This document shows, piece after piece, positions 2,629 to 10,058 of a stretch of DNA of 11,786 bases (the stretch's first letter is position 1; every line of letters begins with the position of its first letter). Made by a program: the position numbers and the translations under genes. The DNA is from Spirochaetes bacterium RBG_16_67_19 (GTDB lineage: Bacteria > Spirochaetota > Spirochaetia > SZUA-6 > DRHE01), in the NCBI GenBank assembly GCA_001829505.1, contig MIBK01000027.1, positions 10,395 to 22,180 on the forward strand, given 5' to 3'. The notes beneath the pieces were generated by a model, which was not told the origin of the DNA, did no database searches, and saw only the letters and a program-made list of their open reading frames with translations.

Positions 2629-3981
2629 TTAATAGTTTCCCCCCAGCAAGTCCAGGAGTTTCACCTTCTTGCCTTTCTTGCGCTCGGCGGAGGACAGCAG
2701 CTGGTCGTAGAGCTTCTCGTTCTTGATGTCGAAGGCCAGGTAATCGTACAGGTGGTTCTTGGTGTAGATCTCCTTGGCCTGCTCGAAGCTGATGCCGCGC
2801 GCCTCGGCGTCCGCCTTGACCCGGCCGTCCAGCTCCTCCTGGGTGGCTTCGACGTTCTCCCGCTTGACCATCTCGCTGACCACCAGCTGCAGGCGCAGCT
2901 TCTTCTCCGCGGCCGGCTTCCATTCCTCCTGCACGCTCTGCTTGCTGCGCCCCTCCTTTTCCAGCTCGCGCAGCACTACGCTCTCCTCGGCCCGCAGGCG
3001 CCCCAGGAAGCGCTGAAACTCCTCCTCCAGCTCGCTTTCCAGCATGGACTTGGGTAGTGCGATGGTCGCCCCGGCGGCGACCTTGTCCAGGAGCTGGCTG
3101 ATGCTGTGCTCCCGCACCCTGCGGGAGGCGTGCTGGGCGAGCTTCTCCCGGATGTCCTTCTTCAAATCCTCCAGGCTCTTGTACTTGTCGCTGATATCCT
3201 GGGCCAGCTCGTCGTTGATCTCCGGAAGCTGCTTCTCCTTGACGCTGTTCAGTTTGACCTTCAGGGAAAGCTTGCGTCCGGCCAGCTCCTTGACCTCGAA
3301 GTCTGCGGGGTAATCCTTGGCGATGGACTTTTCCTCGCCGGCTTTCATCCCGGCGACCTCCTCGTCGAAGCGGTACAGGTTGTAGCCGCTGCCCACCTCG
3401 AACACGAAGGACTGCCGGCGGGTGGCGGTCCTCTCCTGGCCGCCGTCCTCCAGCTCCACGTAGTCCACGTTGACGATGTCGCCCTTGGCGGCCACAGGGT
3501 CCTTCTTGTCCACGACCACGGAGTTCTGCTCCTGCAGGCCCTTCAGCTCCCGCTCCAGGTCCTCCTCGCCGACCTCCACCTCCAGCTCCTCGTACTCCTG
3601 GCCCTTGTACTCGGGCAGCTCGATCTTGGGGAAGGTGTCGAAGGTCACCTTGTAGCTGAACTCCTTGCCCAGCTCCAGCTTGTCCGCGGCGTCCACGGTG
3701 GGCACGGAGGTGGCGATGGGCTTGTGCTCCCCGCCCTCCAGGGCCTGCTGCAGGCTTTTCTGCACGACCTTCTCCGCGGTCTCCCCCAGGATGACCTCCC
3801 CGTACTTCCGCAGCAGGATGGCGGGGGGTACCTTGCCCTTGCGGAAGCCGTCCATGCGCACGTTCCGGCAGTACTCCGACAGCAGCTCGTCGTACTCCTT
3901 GCGGATGGCCTCCTCGGCAACGGTGATGGTAAGGCGCACGCTGGAGTTTTCCAGCAGCTCGGTTTCCTTGTTCTTGATCAC
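2629..3981 (-). CDS. tig: Trigger factor, ribosome-associated chaperone/PPIase
   Basis: Trigger factor binds near the ribosomal exit tunnel and shelters nascent chains. With the GTG start at 3979-3981 it has 450 residues, usual for the family. The ribosome-docking signature GFRKGKVP is at 45-52. The central FKBP-like PPIase domain covers about residues 155-260 ([18 protein letters not shown], then GMKAGEEK). The C-terminal helical arms form the substrate cradle, and the chain ends in a basic tail near RKKGKKVK. I choose GTG because GGAGG lies 8 nt upstream (3990-3994). A longer TTG start at 3996 would fall inside that Shine-Dalgarno. From memory, the N-terminus and PPIase motifs look most like spirochaetal trigger factors. 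It leads the tig-clpP-clpX-lon operon. Confidence 0.95.
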
Positions 3982-4709: not shown

Positions 4710-5456
4710 ATGAAAACTCGAATCGCCGCGATGCTGGTACTGGGGGCCATCTGGTCCGCTCCGTTGTCCGCGGTTCCGCCGGAGTTGGTCCCCGCGATGT
4801 CCGCCCTGGACCGGGCCTACATACCGGCCCTGGGCCTGTCCGGGCAGAGCGGTGAGCTGGCCAGGGCCAAGACGGCCTTCCTCCGCTTCGAAAAATCCTG
4901 GGATGCCTTCCGGGAGCGGTTCGCGGCGCAGCCTGGTTTCGATGCCGAATGGAACAAGGACCTGGCCGGCGTGCACGAAGCCGTGGAGGAATCGCGCGCT
5001 GCGCTGATGGACAATTCGAACGGCCCCGCGGCCCACGAGGCGCTGGAGCGGGTGAGGATGATCCTGCTGGGATCCCGAGCCCGGCAGAAGATCCCCTATT
5101 TCCTCGATTCGCTCACCCTGTTCCACAACTTCATGGAAGACCTGCTCGAAGAAGCCCCGGCCCGGAAGCTCGCGGAGTGGGACGAGGCTGAGAAGCTGGG
5201 CTTCACGGCCGACCTGGAGGTTTGCCGCGCGCTGTGGAAGAAGGCGAAGGCCCGGGAAGGGCTGCTTCCCGAGGCGGGGCTCGCACCGAAAGCGGCCGCG
5301 GCGTTCGCGATCCAATGGGAGATCATCGACGGCGTGATGAGCGAAATCCGTGACGCACTGGCCGCCGGCGACGAAGCGGCCCTGCGCGCGGCGCTGAAGC
5401 AGTTGAAGCCCAATTTCATCAAGACCTTCTTCCTGTTCGGGGATTTCCCCGCGTAA
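4710..5456 (+). CDS. Secreted/periplasmic all-helical protein of unknown function
   Basis: The 248-residue product starts with a clear Sec signal peptide. It has a basic Lys2/Arg4, a hydrophobic core (residues 6-15) and a likely cleavage site after LSA around residue 21; there is no lipobox. The mature part is rich in Ala, Glu, Leu and Lys and should be a helical bundle. Notable conserved-looking stretches are AAHEALERVR and YFLDSLTLFHNFMEDLLEEA. Their His, Glu and Asp residues could bind a metal, which is inference only. I do not recognise a named family. The ATG at 4710 is chosen over TTG at 4704 because the signal peptide begins there. No Shine-Dalgarno is visible. bcp follows after 12 bp, so the two are probably one transcript, perhaps with an oxidative or envelope-stress role. 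Confidence 0.8.
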   Translation: MKTRIAAMLVLGAIWSAPLSAVPPELVPAMSALDRAYIPALGLSGQSGELARAKTAFLRFEKSWDAFRERFAAQPGFDAEWNKDLAGVHEAVEESRAALMDNSNGPAAHEALERVRMILLGSRARQKIPYFLDSLTLFHNFMEDLLEEAPARKLAEWDEAEKLGFTADLEVCRALWKKAKAREGLLPEAGLAPKAAAAFAIQWEIIDGVMSEIRDALAAGDEAALRAALKQLKPNFIKTFFLFGDFPA

Positions 5457-5468
5457 GGAGCACGAATC

Positions 5469-5921
5469 ATGGCAGAGCTCAGCAAGGGAGCGAAGGCGCC
5501 GTCCTTCAGCCTGCAGGACCAGGACGGCAAGACGGTCAAGCTGGGGGACTCCCAGGGCAGGAAGCTTCTCCTATACTTCTACCCCAAGGCCGACACCCCG
5601 GGCTGCACCACCCAGGCCTGCAGCATCCGCGACGCCATGCCGGATTTGAAGAGCCTGGGGATCGCCGCCGTGGGCATCAGCCCCGACGAGCCGAAAGCGC
5701 AGAAGAAGTTCGCCGACAAGTACCAGCTCTCCTTTCCCCTGCTCTCGGACCCGCAGCACGCCACGGCTGTGGCCTACGGAGCCTGGGGCGAGAACCAGGG
5801 CATCCTGCGCTCCTCCTTCCTCATTGACGAGGCGGGAAAGATCCTCCAGGCCTGGTACAAGGTGAGCCCGGCGGACACGGTGCCGTTGGCCAAGGAAGCG
5901 CTGCTTCAGGCTCGAGACTAA
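5469..5921 (+). CDS. bcp: Bcp/PrxQ-type thioredoxin-dependent peroxiredoxin
   Basis: This thiol peroxidase (AhpC/TSA superfamily, PrxQ/Bcp branch) reduces H2O2 and organic hydroperoxides in the cytoplasm, recycled by thioredoxin. The 150-residue length is typical. The active-site motif YPKADTPGCTTQACSIRD has peroxidatic Cys46 and, five residues on, resolving Cys51, the atypical 2-Cys arrangement of E. coli Bcp. The N-terminal GAKAPSFSL and the FLIDEAGKI segment near residue 117 match the fold. The ATG is preceded by AAGGAG at proper spacing, 12 bp after the upstream gene. Its TAA (5919-5921) overlaps, on the other strand, the TAG of the displaced E2 tail copy. bcp and the 2-oxo-acid dehydrogenase operon were therefore probably once directly convergent. 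Confidence 0.95.
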   Translation: MAELSKGAKAPSFSLQDQDGKTVKLGDSQGRKLLLYFYPKADTPGCTTQACSIRDAMPDLKSLGIAAVGISPDEPKAQKKFADKYQLSFPLLSDPQHATAVAYGAWGENQGILRSSFLIDEAGKILQAWYKVSPADTVPLAKEALLQARD

Positions 5922-5924
5922 TAC

Positions 5925-5975
5925 AGCAGCAGCTCCTGAGGGCGGGCGGCCAGGTCCATGAAGCGGCGCAGGAAG
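5925..5975 (-). repeat. Displaced 51-bp copy of the E2 gene 3' end
   Basis: This segment matches 6772-6822 at 50 of 51 positions; the only difference is at 5939, against 6786. On the minus strand it still encodes FLRRFMDLAARPQELLL, followed by Tyr and a TAG at 5918-5920. Upstream of the segment the similarity to E2 stops abruptly. It is a direct repeat bounding the low-GC insert and most simply the original E2 terminus, left beside bcp. Confidence 0.92.
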
Positions 5976-5987
5976 GAGCGCCAAGCG

Positions 5988-5998
5988 CCTTCACACCG
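5988..5998. repeat. 11-bp direct repeat, copy downstream of GYD gene
   Basis: CCTTCACACCG here recurs at 6331-6341 in the leader of the GYD gene, in both places next to a GCG-rich stretch (AGCG here, GGCGCT there). The two copies flank the GYD gene. This may be a short cassette boundary or chance. Confidence 0.4.
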
Positions 5999-6013
5999 GG
6001 CAACACGGTTGCA

Positions 6014-6307
6014 TCAAGTCAGGCTGGCGCAAAGCTTTCGGTATTCACCCTCGGTGAAAGCGCTCAAAGTTTGAGTGCGCACATTCCCCAGCGCGCCAAT
6101 CGTGAGCATCAGTCTCGTTACCACTTCGTCGTTCGGTGCTTCGGCAACCACGACAGCGTCGTATTGTCCCATCACCAGATACCATTCCTTCAGTTTTCCA
6201 CCCATTGCTTCTGCGGCTTTTCTTGCCGCATCCAGCCGTGACGGGCTTTCCTTGATAGTCTTCATGCCCTGCTCTGTGTAGTTCAACAAGATGATGTAAG
6301 TTCTCAT
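6014..6307 (-). CDS. GYD-domain protein
   Basis: This is a small (97-residue) soluble ferredoxin-fold-like protein of the GYD family, which has no settled biochemical function. Hallmarks are MRTYIILLNYTEQGMKTI at the start, SPSRLDAARKAAEAMGGKL, the family motif here as LVMGQYDAVVVAEAPND, and the C-terminal LGNVRTQTLSAFTEGEY. I take ATG at 6305-6307 because AAAGGGGA lies about 8 nt upstream and family members begin with M-x-T-Y-I. A start 30 nt upstream lacks both. Coding G+C is well below that of the neighbours, consistent with recent acquisition. It is on the same strand as the truncated GNAT gene upstream of it. Confidence 0.85.
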   Translation of the reverse strand: MRTYIILLNYTEQGMKTIKESPSRLDAARKAAEAMGGKLKEWYLVMGQYDAVVVAEAPNDEVVTRLMLTIGALGNVRTQTLSAFTEGEYRKLCASLT

Positions 6308-6330
6308 CCTAAGTTCCCCTTTCAGGCGCT

Positions 6331-6341
6331 CCTTCACACCG
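6331..6341. repeat. 11-bp direct repeat, copy upstream of GYD gene
   Basis: This is the second copy of CCTTCACACCG, matching 5988-5998. It lies in the GYD leader between the candidate operator and the Shine-Dalgarno. Confidence 0.4.
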
Positions 6342-6342
6342 T

Positions 6343-6359
6343 TGACTAAGTATAAGTCA
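6343..6359. promoter_or_regulatory. Inverted repeat over a possible GYD -10 element
   Basis: TGACT, 7 nt, AGTCA form a palindrome. Its centre contains, on the minus strand, TATACT, a fair -10 hexamer for the GYD gene. The -35 is weak. An operator for a repressor covering the promoter is possible but unproven. Confidence 0.3.
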
Positions 6360-6392
6360 TAAATGTTCCTACTGTGTCCTTTCCTGATCGGC

Positions 6393-6761
6393 TCAACCGC
6401 TGCGATCCGCCAAGCTTAGCTCCATGAAAACCCAATGCTGGCGATAGGCAACAGGGATTTCACTCTCTTCATAGGGCGATATGTCCCGAAAACCGAAGGA
6501 TCGATACAGGGCATGGGCGTCGGACATGAATCCGGCGCTTTCGAGGCGGAGAGTGGCATAGTCTGATTGGCGTGCTGCCTTAATGGTTTCGTTCACGAGC
6601 AAACGCCCGATTCCTTTGCGGCGAAAGCTCGGTCGGACGAACATCCGTTTCAGCTCTGCAGTTTGATTTCCGATTGTCCTAGAGCAGGCACTGCCCGCGA
6701 GAGAGCCGTCCTCAAAGGCGAGAAACAGGATTCCGTTCGGCGGCAGAAGCCCGACGGATCG
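6393..6761 (-). pseudogene. GNAT acetyltransferase remnant lacking its N-terminus
   Basis: The open frame reads as the middle and C-terminal part of a GNAT N-acetyltransferase. The order is PPNGILFLAFEDGSLAGSA (beta-strand 2-3 region), ELKRMFVRPSFRRKGIGRLL (strand 4 and acetyl-CoA pyrophosphate loop, R-R-K-G-I-G), then HALYRSFGFRD and a final VFMELSL. About 122 codons remain; the family usually has 150-170, so the first 40-50 residues are missing. The frame opens directly after the E2 stops (TGA TAA) and has no ATG, GTG or TTG until Met40 at 6642-6644. That Met would cut off a core strand, and no good Shine-Dalgarno precedes it. The break coincides with the edge of the 51-bp repeat, so the gene was truncated by the rearrangement. 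Function probably lost. Confidence 0.8.
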
Positions 6762-6764
6762 TTA

Positions 6765-8021
6765 TCATAAAAGCAGCAGCTCCTGGGGGCGGGCGGCCAG
6801 GTCCATGAAGCGGCGCAGGAAGCGCGCGGCATACACCCCGTCCAGGACGCGGTGGTCGAACACCAGCGACAGGGGCAGGTGCGGCACGGCCGCCCAGGCT
6901 CCGCCGCGGGCCACCGGCTGCTCGTGGATGCGCCCCAGGCCCAGGATGGCCACCTGGGGGGGCAGGATCAGCGGCCGCGCGTACAGCCCGGCGAAGGCCC
7001 CGTAGTTGGTCAGGGTGAAGGTGCCGCCGCGCAGCTCCTCCAGCCGCAGGGTCCTCCCGCGCGCGGCGGCGGCCAGCCGGTCCACCTCGGCCTGCAGCTG
7101 GGGCAGGGACAGGCCGTCGGCCCGCCGGATCACGGGCACCGCCAGCCCCTCCTCGGTGTCCACAGCCACGCCCAGGTTCACCTCGCCGAACTGCTCCACC
7201 TCCTGCCGCTGCGGGTGGTAGGCGGCGTTCAGCAGAGGGTATTCGCGCAGGGCGAGGCCCGCGAACTTGAGGAAGAACGGCAGGTAGCTCAGGCGGGGCA
7301 CCTGGCCTTCGCCGCCCCGCCCCTCGTTGAGAGCCCGCCGCAGGGCCACCAGCTCCTCCACGGGCACCAGCTCGTGGATGACCGCCGAGGGAATGGCGTT
7401 GCTTCTTTCCATATTGGAGGCCAGCGCCCGCCGCAGCGTGGAAAGGGGCTGTACCCGGCCGGCTGCCGGCGGTCTGCCGTTCTCCGCGGTCTCGGCGATA
7501 TCCTTGCGCAGCACGCGCCCGCCGGGTCCCGTGCCATGGACAGCCGCCAGGTCGATGCCCTGCCGGGCGGCCAACTTGCGGGCCACCGGGGAGGCGGCAA
7601 CCGGCTGGCCCAGGCCGGGGGCCGTGGTCCCGGCCGTGACGGGCGGCCCGGCCGGCGCCGCTTCACGCCCTTCGCGGCTCGGGGGCAGCTCCGCGGAGGT
7701 CGCGGTTTCCAGGTTCCCGACCAGGGAGCGCTCCTCCTCCATGCCCGCCTCGCCCCCGCCCGAATCCGGCTCCTCCAGCTCGAGCACCGCCAGGGTCCGG
7801 CCGACCTCGATGATCTCTCCCTCCTTGACCCCGAAGCTCACCAGCGTGCCGTCGCGCGGGGAGGGGATGTCGGCTACGACCTTGTCGGTCTCGACGATCG
7901 CCAGGGTCTGGCCTTGCTTCACGCGCTGCCCCGGCTGGACTTTCAGCTCCAGCACCTTGCCCTCGGCCAGCCCCTCGCCGATATCGGGGAAGGCGAACTC
8001 GAAGCGTTTCTTAGGGCTCAT
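6765..8021 (-). CDS. 2-oxo-acid dehydrogenase E2, dihydrolipoamide acyltransferase
   Basis: E2 forms the core of the pyruvate or branched-chain 2-oxo-acid dehydrogenase complex and transfers the acyl group from lipoyl-lysine to CoA. The 418 residues show one lipoyl domain (about 6-82) with Lys47 in VETDKV. A Pro/Glu/Ala-rich linker leads to a peripheral subunit-binding domain (about 143-176, SPVARKLAARQGIDL then GTGPGGRVLRKDI). The catalytic domain (about 190-418) has DHRVLDG with His390 and Asp394. The ATG at 8019-8021 overlaps the E1-beta 3' end by 11 bp. A tandem TGA-TAA stop follows. Its last 51 coding bases are duplicated 847 bp downstream, and the present C-terminus ends LLLL where the displaced copy ends LLLY. 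Whether the substrate is pyruvate or a branched-chain oxo acid cannot be decided from sequence alone. Confidence 0.93.
   Translation of the reverse strand: MSPKKRFEFAFPDIGEGLAEGKVLELKVQPGQRVKQGQTLAIVETDKVVADIPSPRDGTLVSFGVKEGEIIEVGRTLAVLELEEPDSGGGEAGMEEERSLVGNLETATSAELPPSREGREAAPAGPPVTAGTTAPGLGQPVAASPVARKLAARQGIDLAAVHGTGPGGRVLRKDIAETAENGRPPAAGRVQPLSTLRRALASNMERSNAIPSAVIHELVPVEELVALRRALNEGRGGEGQVPRLSYLPFFLKFAGLALREYPLLNAAYHPQRQEVEQFGEVNLGVAVDTEEGLAVPVIRRADGLSLPQLQAEVDRLAAAARGRTLRLEELRGGTFTLTNYGAFAGLYARPLILPPQVAILGLGRIHEQPVARGGAWAAVPHLPLSLVFDHRVLDGVYAARFLRRFMDLAARPQELLLL
6772..6822 (-). repeat. 51-bp direct repeat, in-gene copy at the E2 3' end
   Basis: This is the functional copy of the repeat. 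It supplies the last 17 codons or so of E2, except the extreme end. It matches 5925-5975 at 50 of 51 positions, including third codon positions, which shows recent duplication rather than protein homology. Confidence 0.92.
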
Positions 8022-8994: not shown

Positions 8995-10058
8995 GGGCGC
9001 CTGCGCTCCAGCTGTCGGGCCAGGGGCTGCGGCAGCTCGTGGAACATAAACCGGAAGGTGTCCTCCAGGCTCGGGTCGTTGAGGCGCTCGGCCTGCTCGA
9101 ACTCGGCCTGGGCCCTGGCCAGGCACTTCTGTTTGATGTCCTGGACGTCCTTCTTGCGCAGCAGGCCGCGCAGGCGCAGGTAGCGCTCCAGGCGCAGCAG
9201 CGGGTCCAGCGCGCGCCAGCGCTCCACCTCGGAGTCCACCCGGTAATGGCGCGGGTCGTCGGAGGTCGTATGCGCCCCCAGGCGGTAGGTGTAGCCCTCG
9301 ATCAGGGTGGGGCCTCCGCCGGCGCGCGCCTTGTCCGCGGCCTGGCGCACCGCCGCGTACACGGCGAACAGGTCGTTGCCGTCCACCTGCACGCCCTCGA
9401 AGCCGTAGGCGAAGGCCTTCTCGGCCACGGTCGCCGAGGCGGTCTGCTTTCCGGCGGGAAGCGAGATGGCCCACTGGTTGTTCTGGGTGAAGAAGATCAC
9501 CCCGGACTTCCAAACCCCGGCCAGGTTCAGGGCCTCGTGCCAGTCCCCCTCCGAGGTGGCCCCCTCGCCCATGAAAGCGATCACCACCCGGTCGCTGCCG
9601 CGCAAGCGCTCGGCATAGGCCAGCCCCACCGCGTGCAGCGGCTGGCTGCCCACTGGCACGGAGATGGGCAGCATGTGGTAGGTCTCGCGCGGGAGGTGGC
9701 TGCCCAGCTCGTTGCCGTGCCAATAGAGGTAGATCTGGTGCAGGGGCAGCCCGCGCATGATCATGCCGGCCAGCTCGCGGTAGGCCGGCACGAACCAGTC
9801 ATCGGGGCGCAGGGCCAGCAGGGCCCCGGCGGAGTTGGCCTCCTGCCCCTCATTGAGCACGTAGGTGGGCATGCGCCCCTGGCGGTTCAGGTTCACCGCC
9901 CACTCGTCGGCCTGCCGGGCCAGCACCATGACCCGGTAGGCCTCCAGCACCTCTTCGTCGGAGGGACGCGGAAGTGCCGAGACGCAGTCCGCCAGACACC
10001 CTTCCGGGTTGAGGAGGGAAAGGCGTTTGCCCTCCCTTGGGTCGTAAGCTTGGAACAT
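8991..10058 (-). CDS. 2-oxo-acid dehydrogenase E1 component, alpha subunit
   Basis: This is the ThDP-binding alpha chain of the E1 heterotetramer, 355 residues. The pyrophosphate/Mg site appears as GEGATSEGDWHEALNLAGVW (164-183) and closes with NNQWAIS (193-199). The first residue triplet is GEG where many homologues have GDG. The loop GAHTTSDDPRHYR (261-273) is of the kind found in branched-chain and in many actinobacterial/Thermus-type two-chain enzymes, rather than the GHSMSDP of mitochondrial PDH. The ATG at 10056-10058 has AGTAGG about 7 nt upstream, a modest ribosome binding site. It is first in the E1-alpha, E1-beta, E2 operon, whose genes overlap. No lpd (E3) is nearby, so E3 is shared. 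Branched-chain or pyruvate substrate both remain possible. Confidence 0.94.
   Translation of the reverse strand: MFQAYDPREGKRLSLLNPEGCLADCVSALPRPSDEEVLEAYRVMVLARQADEWAVNLNRQGRMPTYVLNEGQEANSAGALLALRPDDWFVPAYRELAGMIMRGLPLHQIYLYWHGNELGSHLPRETYHMLPISVPVGSQPLHAVGLAYAERLRGSDRVVIAFMGEGATSEGDWHEALNLAGVWKSGVIFFTQNNQWAISLPAGKQTASATVAEKAFAYGFEGVQVDGNDLFAVYAAVRQAADKARAGGGPTLIEGYTYRLGAHTTSDDPRHYRVDSEVERWRALDPLLRLERYLRLRGLLRKKDVQDIKQKCLARAQAEFEQAERLNDPSLEDTFRFMFHELPQPLARQLERRRP

Follow-up and report, generated by a model that had tools for sequence, protein, structure and literature searches.

In Spirochaetes bacterium RBG_16_67_19, a foreign low-GC segment sits at the 3′ end of a gene for dihydrolipoamide acyltransferase (E2), between two copies of a 51 bp direct repeat of the E2 end. 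The locus lies in an 11,786 bp stretch of DNA (hereafter the window), which is positions 10395-22180 of contig C27 (MIBK01000027.1) in an assembly of 3.80 Mb, 245 contigs and an estimated 84% completeness. We regard it as the genuine trace of a fairly recent capture of foreign genes, most probably by an illegitimate insertion associated with repair. We consider it likely, with a probability of roughly 0.58, that the foreign DNA was captured during the repair of a chromosome break, with a long duplication of the target, rather than delivered by one site-specific integrative element.

Structure of the insertion

E2 is encoded on the minus strand and heads toward a plus-strand bcp-type peroxiredoxin gene. 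The features of the locus, in window coordinates, are as follows.

5469..5921, plus strand: bcp-type peroxiredoxin gene (AhpC-TSA; open reading frame, Pfam PF00578), the convergent neighbour of E2, stop TAA at 5919-5921
5918..5924, minus strand: most likely the native E2 end past the repeat, with Tyr codon TAT at 5921-5923 and stop TAG at 5918-5920, overlapping the bcp TAA
5925..5975, minus strand: distal 51 bp repeat copy, most likely the original E2 terminus, now extragenic (sequence comparison)
5976..6771, no strand: foreign insert, 796 bp, 53.5% GC, enclosing two open reading frames (ORFs) of at least 80 aa
6014..6307, minus strand: GYD-domain gene (PF08734), 97 aa from the ATG at 6305-6307
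6393..6761, minus strand: 5′-truncated GNAT acetyltransferase gene (Pfam and longer relatives)
6765..6771, minus strand: new E2 end supplied by the insert, Leu TTA and stop TGA (TTA TGA at 6765-6770) plus the junction base
6772..6822, minus strand: proximal 51 bp repeat copy, encoding FLRRFMDLAARPQELL plus two bases of the next Leu codon
6765..8021, minus strand: E2 dihydrolipoamide acyltransferase gene, 418 aa (ORF, Pfam)

The two repeat copies are identical at 50/51 positions, and the similarity ends sharply on both sides (12/40 matches in each flank). The sole mismatch falls in a Pro codon of the E2 frame and is synonymous. The repeat, its single mismatch and its abrupt edges had been described in a first-pass annotation of the sequence, and the comparison bears that description out. 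The same holds for the drop in GC content, put there at about 70% to about 53%. We obtained 73.0% for the E2 body and 53.5% for the insert; bcp has 64.9%. In the sampled genome, 7138 overlapping segments of 796 bp have a mean GC of 66.8% (sd 4.5%), and 1.1% of them are as low as the insert. A blastn-short search of 1.6 Mb of the organism's own genome with the 51-mer recovered the second copy (E = 3.9e-21) and no further match longer than 18 bp. Searched against the whole genome, the full segment found, besides itself, only a second GYD gene. A plain decayed gene duplication is not supported, given the duplication of 51 bp only and the unrelated flanks.

The annotation had also proposed that removing one repeat together with the insert would restore an E2 ending in LLLY, with a TAG overlapping the bcp TAA in a tight convergent pair. 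This reconstruction agrees with the sequence. Read on the minus strand, the distal copy passes into CTG TAT TAG and so yields ...RPQELLLY*, with a stop that shares two bases with the stop of bcp. From the proximal copy the frame leads instead to LLLL*, the final TTA TGA being taken from the insert. Thus, what had been called the last 51 bp of E2 is indeed the repeated unit, but it is not the exact terminus of the present gene, which runs on into the insert.

Of the E2 relatives, we compared the 28 ranked best (P0197-P0224). Nine of them end in LLLY, one in LFLY, four in LLLH, four in LLLF, five in LLLSE, three in LLLL and one in MLLL; the remaining one (P0198) is incomplete. An E2 tree, whose bootstrap had not fully converged, places the window's E2 with P0197 and P0198 (support 90/78), and the next branches are P0223 and P0199/P0200. 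In this clade of six, P0199, P0200 and P0223 end in LLLY, P0198 is incomplete, and P0197, a 94% relative, ends in LLLL as the window's E2 does. P0223, from a contig of 151 kb, shows 95% identity over 277 aligned positions. Because the neighbouring branches P0223 and P0199/P0200 end in LLLY, the native E2 end is most likely that of the distal copy. The insertion most likely postdates the split from P0223, and perhaps predates the split from P0197. In another lineage, near-identical E2 proteins end either in LLLSE (P0204, P0206, P0209-P0211) or in LLLL (P0207, P0208). This division may stem from a small indel or from a second event at this end of the gene.

The insert's two genes, which the annotation had judged unrelated to E2, were both confirmed, the second of them as a remnant. 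The GYD gene is complete (PF08734, 109.6 bits). It has relatives of up to 96% identity in metagenomes, and only two of 392 genomes sampled from the phylum gave matches: the organism itself (twice) and one genome at 34% identity. The GNAT gene has some match in 186 of 394 genomes sampled from the class (the best outside its own genome is 54% identical) and metagenome relatives of up to 87% identity. It lacks about 50 N-terminal residues; the seven longer relatives that we fetched (164-179 aa) start about 50 residues earlier. The recognisable homology stops at most about 20 bp from the repeat border. Because GNAT is cut so near the repeat, its position suggests that the insert border on this side is arbitrary.

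A cluster of GNAT remnants of 83 aa (P0008) contains seven member sequences, by its mark the window's protein among them. Its representative, from a 1427 bp contig, differs from the window's GNAT at two residues. Other data thus probably contain the truncation too, and this speaks against a faulty assembly of the right junction. It is very unlikely that the locus is an artefact in which overlapping pieces of different strains were joined with a foreign contig. Several near-perfect tandem duplications in the assembly, e.g., C27:9333-9743, would be in line with such faults. Against this, both a differing truncated GNAT protein and an LLLL-ending E2 are found in other data, positions 5400-7400 are free of N, and a one-base difference between the repeat copies means that they are no plain graph overlap.

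Similar scars elsewhere in the genome

We scanned 123 stretches of the same genome, together 1.57 Mb excluding N (41% of the total), for direct repeats. The scan yielded 61 repeat pairs. Of these, 11 are non-tandem with sharp edges; the remaining 50 received no individual inspection. Four of the 11, the window's included, are target repeats around an insert of lowered GC. The three additional scars are as follows.

C35 (L033), 3419-3471 and 6944-6996: 53 bp repeat, three mismatches, the last 53 bp of what we take to be a sugar-kinase-like gene
C88 (L219), 444-478 and 2146-2180: 35 bp repeat, one mismatch, the terminal 35 bp of a cyclase-like gene with its stop
C110 (L241), 1667-1712 and 2905-2950: 46 bp repeat, six mismatches, the region directly upstream of a WYL-regulator gene

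The C35 insert is 3.5 kb long with 61.8% GC and carries GYD, alpha/beta-hydrolase and presumably MFS-like genes. Its GYD gene is the only other one found, and is 77% identical in DNA to that of the window. The distal repeat copy of C35 has no stop codon. In C88 the copies are 1.7 kb apart and the DNA between them (53.6% GC) is a mosaic. Besides a DUF6941 gene it includes a partial gene copy, about 350 bp that resemble, in two pieces (86.5% and 91%), the end of a gene 1.3-1.5 kb away. We assume that the copied gene encodes an FAD-linked oxidase. On the opposite strand, an open frame without a Pfam family ends about 15 bp past the distal copy, so that the native junction of C88 again looks like a tight convergent pair. 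The C110 copies are 1.2 kb apart and enclose an insert of 52.1% GC with a SocA/Panacea-type antitoxin gene.

The repeats of the four scars (51, 53, 35 and 46 bp) are mutually dissimilar, and the inserts and insert ends are unrelated except for the shared GYD gene. The divergence between repeat copies differs from scar to scar (2%, 3%, 6% and 13%), which suggests events of differing age.

The seven other sharp pairs were set aside. One (L201) is a decayed second copy of a gene that we take to be methylglyoxal-synthase-like, four lie in a single repeat region of L153, and two are the partial-gene-copy pieces in L219. The pair in L157 consists of paralogues. The L153 region (C85:18000-37000, positions 11217-15396) contains several direct repeats of 48-985 bp and lies about 3 kb from a Ku gene. 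The scan also encountered nearly perfect head-to-tail duplications, whose periods range from 178 to 658 bp, in L034 (C27), L138, L200, L205, L220 and L225; the one in C27, at 9333-9743, is just outside the window.

As a control we used 48 loci of other genomes (0.51 Mb), in which L037, L039, L040 and L042 seem to duplicate L082, L085, L092 and L090. Ten sharp pairs were found and four of them viewed in detail; no comparable scar was recognised in the control loci, and one pair (L122, 25 bp) remains without a class. The pairs in L095 and L098 fall within repeat-rich stretches, those in L094 are long or many-copied, and both copies of the pair in L107 (36 bp, 46% GC between them) lie within reading frames of a repeat-type protein. 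The rates are thus four in 1.57 Mb against at most one or two in 0.5 Mb of control, from which we claim neither enrichment nor significance.

Search for a mobile element

The first-pass annotation compared the locus with integrative elements that enter the 3′ end of a gene and supply a replacement end. An example is e14 in icd. The likeness is that a duplicated gene end restores the target gene. Unlike such elements, the insert contains no recognisable recombinase ORF, as the annotation itself had stated, its cargo is truncated near the border, and we found no common attachment sequence. Neither of the two Pfam-tested ORFs of the insert is a transposase, and a comparison of the insert ends by eye revealed no inverted repeat. 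For the attC site of an integron cassette, only general Rfam models were applied; their sole match in 5400-7000 lies within bcp (E = 0.62).

The annotation had suggested searching for the 51 bp sequence elsewhere. The searches of the organism's own genome described above revealed no copy besides the two here, and three pieces of it (26, 20 and 20 bases) had no hits in viral contigs. Scans of viral contigs with GYD and E2 also gave nothing. For an empty site at the DNA level, two contig scans returned no relative above 46% identity. Our sample of relatives comprised 61 genomes, none of the same genus, with closer relatives represented by protein endings only. E2 and bcp are apart in 6/6 relatives of the order in which both genes were matched (G001, G006, G008, G009, G014 and G019).

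A non-autonomous or decayed integrative element, its recombinase acting in trans or lost and the 51 bp copies being two hybrid attachment sites in the E2 3′ end, is an improbable source of this structure. The gene-end site, the replacement end and the repeat length would all fit. The genome also encodes six tyrosine-integrase domains (PF00589), located only on C198, C161 and C211, in a search that excluded serine recombinases, and the LLLL and LLLSE endings of near-identical E2 proteins could mean repeated events at the E2 end. These points are countered by ORFs of at least 80 aa that amount to GYD and a GNAT remnant, by the breaking off of GNAT homology near the border, by the lack of any other match longer than 18 bp to the 51-mer in 1.6 Mb of the genome and of viral hits for its three pieces, and by the unrelated repeats (35-53 bp) of the other scars. 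Thus, the earlier insertion hypothesis stands as far as a foreign low-GC segment at a tight convergent E2/bcp junction and an insert-supplied E2 end are concerned; the integrative element that it invoked is not supported, although the points against it are not final.

Proposed capture during break repair

Ku and LigD together form the two-part bacterial end-joining system. Both are encoded in this genome on C85, LigD as a frame of 827 aa. Together with these host genes we found an apparently arbitrary cargo end and unrelated target duplications at four sites, as for a capture of the non-homologous end joining (NHEJ) type. Unrelated scar repeats, unrelated insert ends and the presence of Ku and LigD argue against one integrative element and for capture during break repair.

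We infer the following course of events. A break at the tight convergent E2/bcp junction would have been sealed with a random foreign fragment containing GYD and most of GNAT, presumably by Ku and LigD. With a stagger of about 51 nt between the broken strands, both overhangs would have been filled in; alternatively, repair synthesis could have had the same outcome. Either way 51 bp of the target would be doubled, with one copy on each side of the insert. The outer copy would retain the native E2 end beside bcp, and the inner copy would carry the E2 frame to within two codons of the end, from where the insert would add the final codons and a stop. The position at a gene end needs no targeting, because an insertion at so tight a junction survives only if both genes remain whole. 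Survivors would therefore be biased toward sites where the duplication leaves both flanking genes intact. The C110 scar, where the duplicated DNA lies upstream of a gene rather than at its end, fits this view of survival better than it fits recognition of gene ends.

Template switching, either as microhomology-mediated replication repair or as one-sided illegitimate recombination of incoming DNA, would produce the same anatomy with neither a staggered break nor Ku and LigD. After leaving the E2 end, a polymerase would have copied foreign DNA before going back to a point 51 bp upstream. We regard this as the strongest of the alternatives, yet as rather unlikely. The mosaic of the C88 insert, low-GC DNA joined to about 350 bp resembling a nearby gene end, speaks for it. 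The left junction of the window also matches the flank of the second GYD gene at 15/17 positions, which is possible microhomology, although weak (E = 0.89). One study (PMC2884548) estimates that much of the small-scale variation in E. coli is due to illegitimate recombination. The donor was not found, hence there is no switch point to show, and the Ku/LigD route accounts for the structure equally well.

Capture during break repair has partial counterparts elsewhere. In primates, insertions of mitochondrial DNA (numts) carry target duplications of 1-11 nt that have been interpreted, in the text available to us, as filled-in overhangs of natural breaks (PMC2567098). The two cases share a foreign fragment with arbitrary ends and a target duplicated on both sides, with neither element genes nor terminal repeats; here the duplications measure 35-53 bp, the host is a bacterium and the cargo consists of foreign genes. 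Acquisition of heterologous DNA by bacterial NHEJ has been reported (Dupuy et al., 2019, Nucleic Acids Res.), and there too a host with Ku and LigD captured foreign DNA. The passages citing that work tell mostly of small deletions after induced breaks, and they describe no natural scar like this one. Small variable segments of bacterial genomes are short, differ between strains, are flanked by repeats in 10-18% of cases and, in the portion of the study available, are largely ascribed to illegitimate recombination (PMC2884548). They resemble our scars as short segments between repeats, with illegitimate recombination as the proposed cause. They differ in that 66-94% of their repeats are shorter than 30 bp and are discussed there as sites of slippage or deletion, whereas the repeats here are the tail or upstream region of a neighbouring gene around foreign cargo. 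At the level of titles and abstracts, our literature search returned no bacterial example of 35-53 bp target duplications flanking foreign genes.

Several points weigh against capture during break repair. The duplications of 35-53 bp far exceed the maximum of 11 nt given for the primate insertions (PMC2567098), and the part of the literature at hand reports bacterial NHEJ repair mostly as small deletions (PMC10932983). Neither a DNA-level empty site nor a donor sequence was found in the searches made. The left junction is without support from outside this assembly, and the near-perfect tandem duplications of this metagenome assembly could be real young duplications or assembly faults. With its stopless distal copy, the kinase case on C35 may have a different history. 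The division between LLLL and LLLSE endings hints at repeated events at the E2 end, which would favour a site preference.

Among the neighbouring features of the window, the protein encoded at 4704-5456 matches the CATRA-associated small protein family at 25.3 bits, below the cut-off of 29.

Significance

To our knowledge, the entry of genes into bacterial chromosomes without a mobile-element signature is poorly documented in nature. The chief interest of the locus is that such scars recur in one genome and that their long duplications spare the genes that were hit. As a more speculative and doubtful extension, this lineage might repeatedly gain foreign genes via breaks whose overhangs measure about 35-55 nt. 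The long duplication left by the fill-in would then render the captures harmless, because it would re-create the end or the upstream part of the gene hit. Genes would in this way be added at tight junctions independently of sequence and of any element, with the E2 3′ end as a recurrent site. Such scars can be searched for by their signature, low-GC cargo between direct copies of a gene's tail or of its upstream region. Counting this signature in genomes with and without Ku and LigD would make the natural share of end joining in gene acquisition directly testable.

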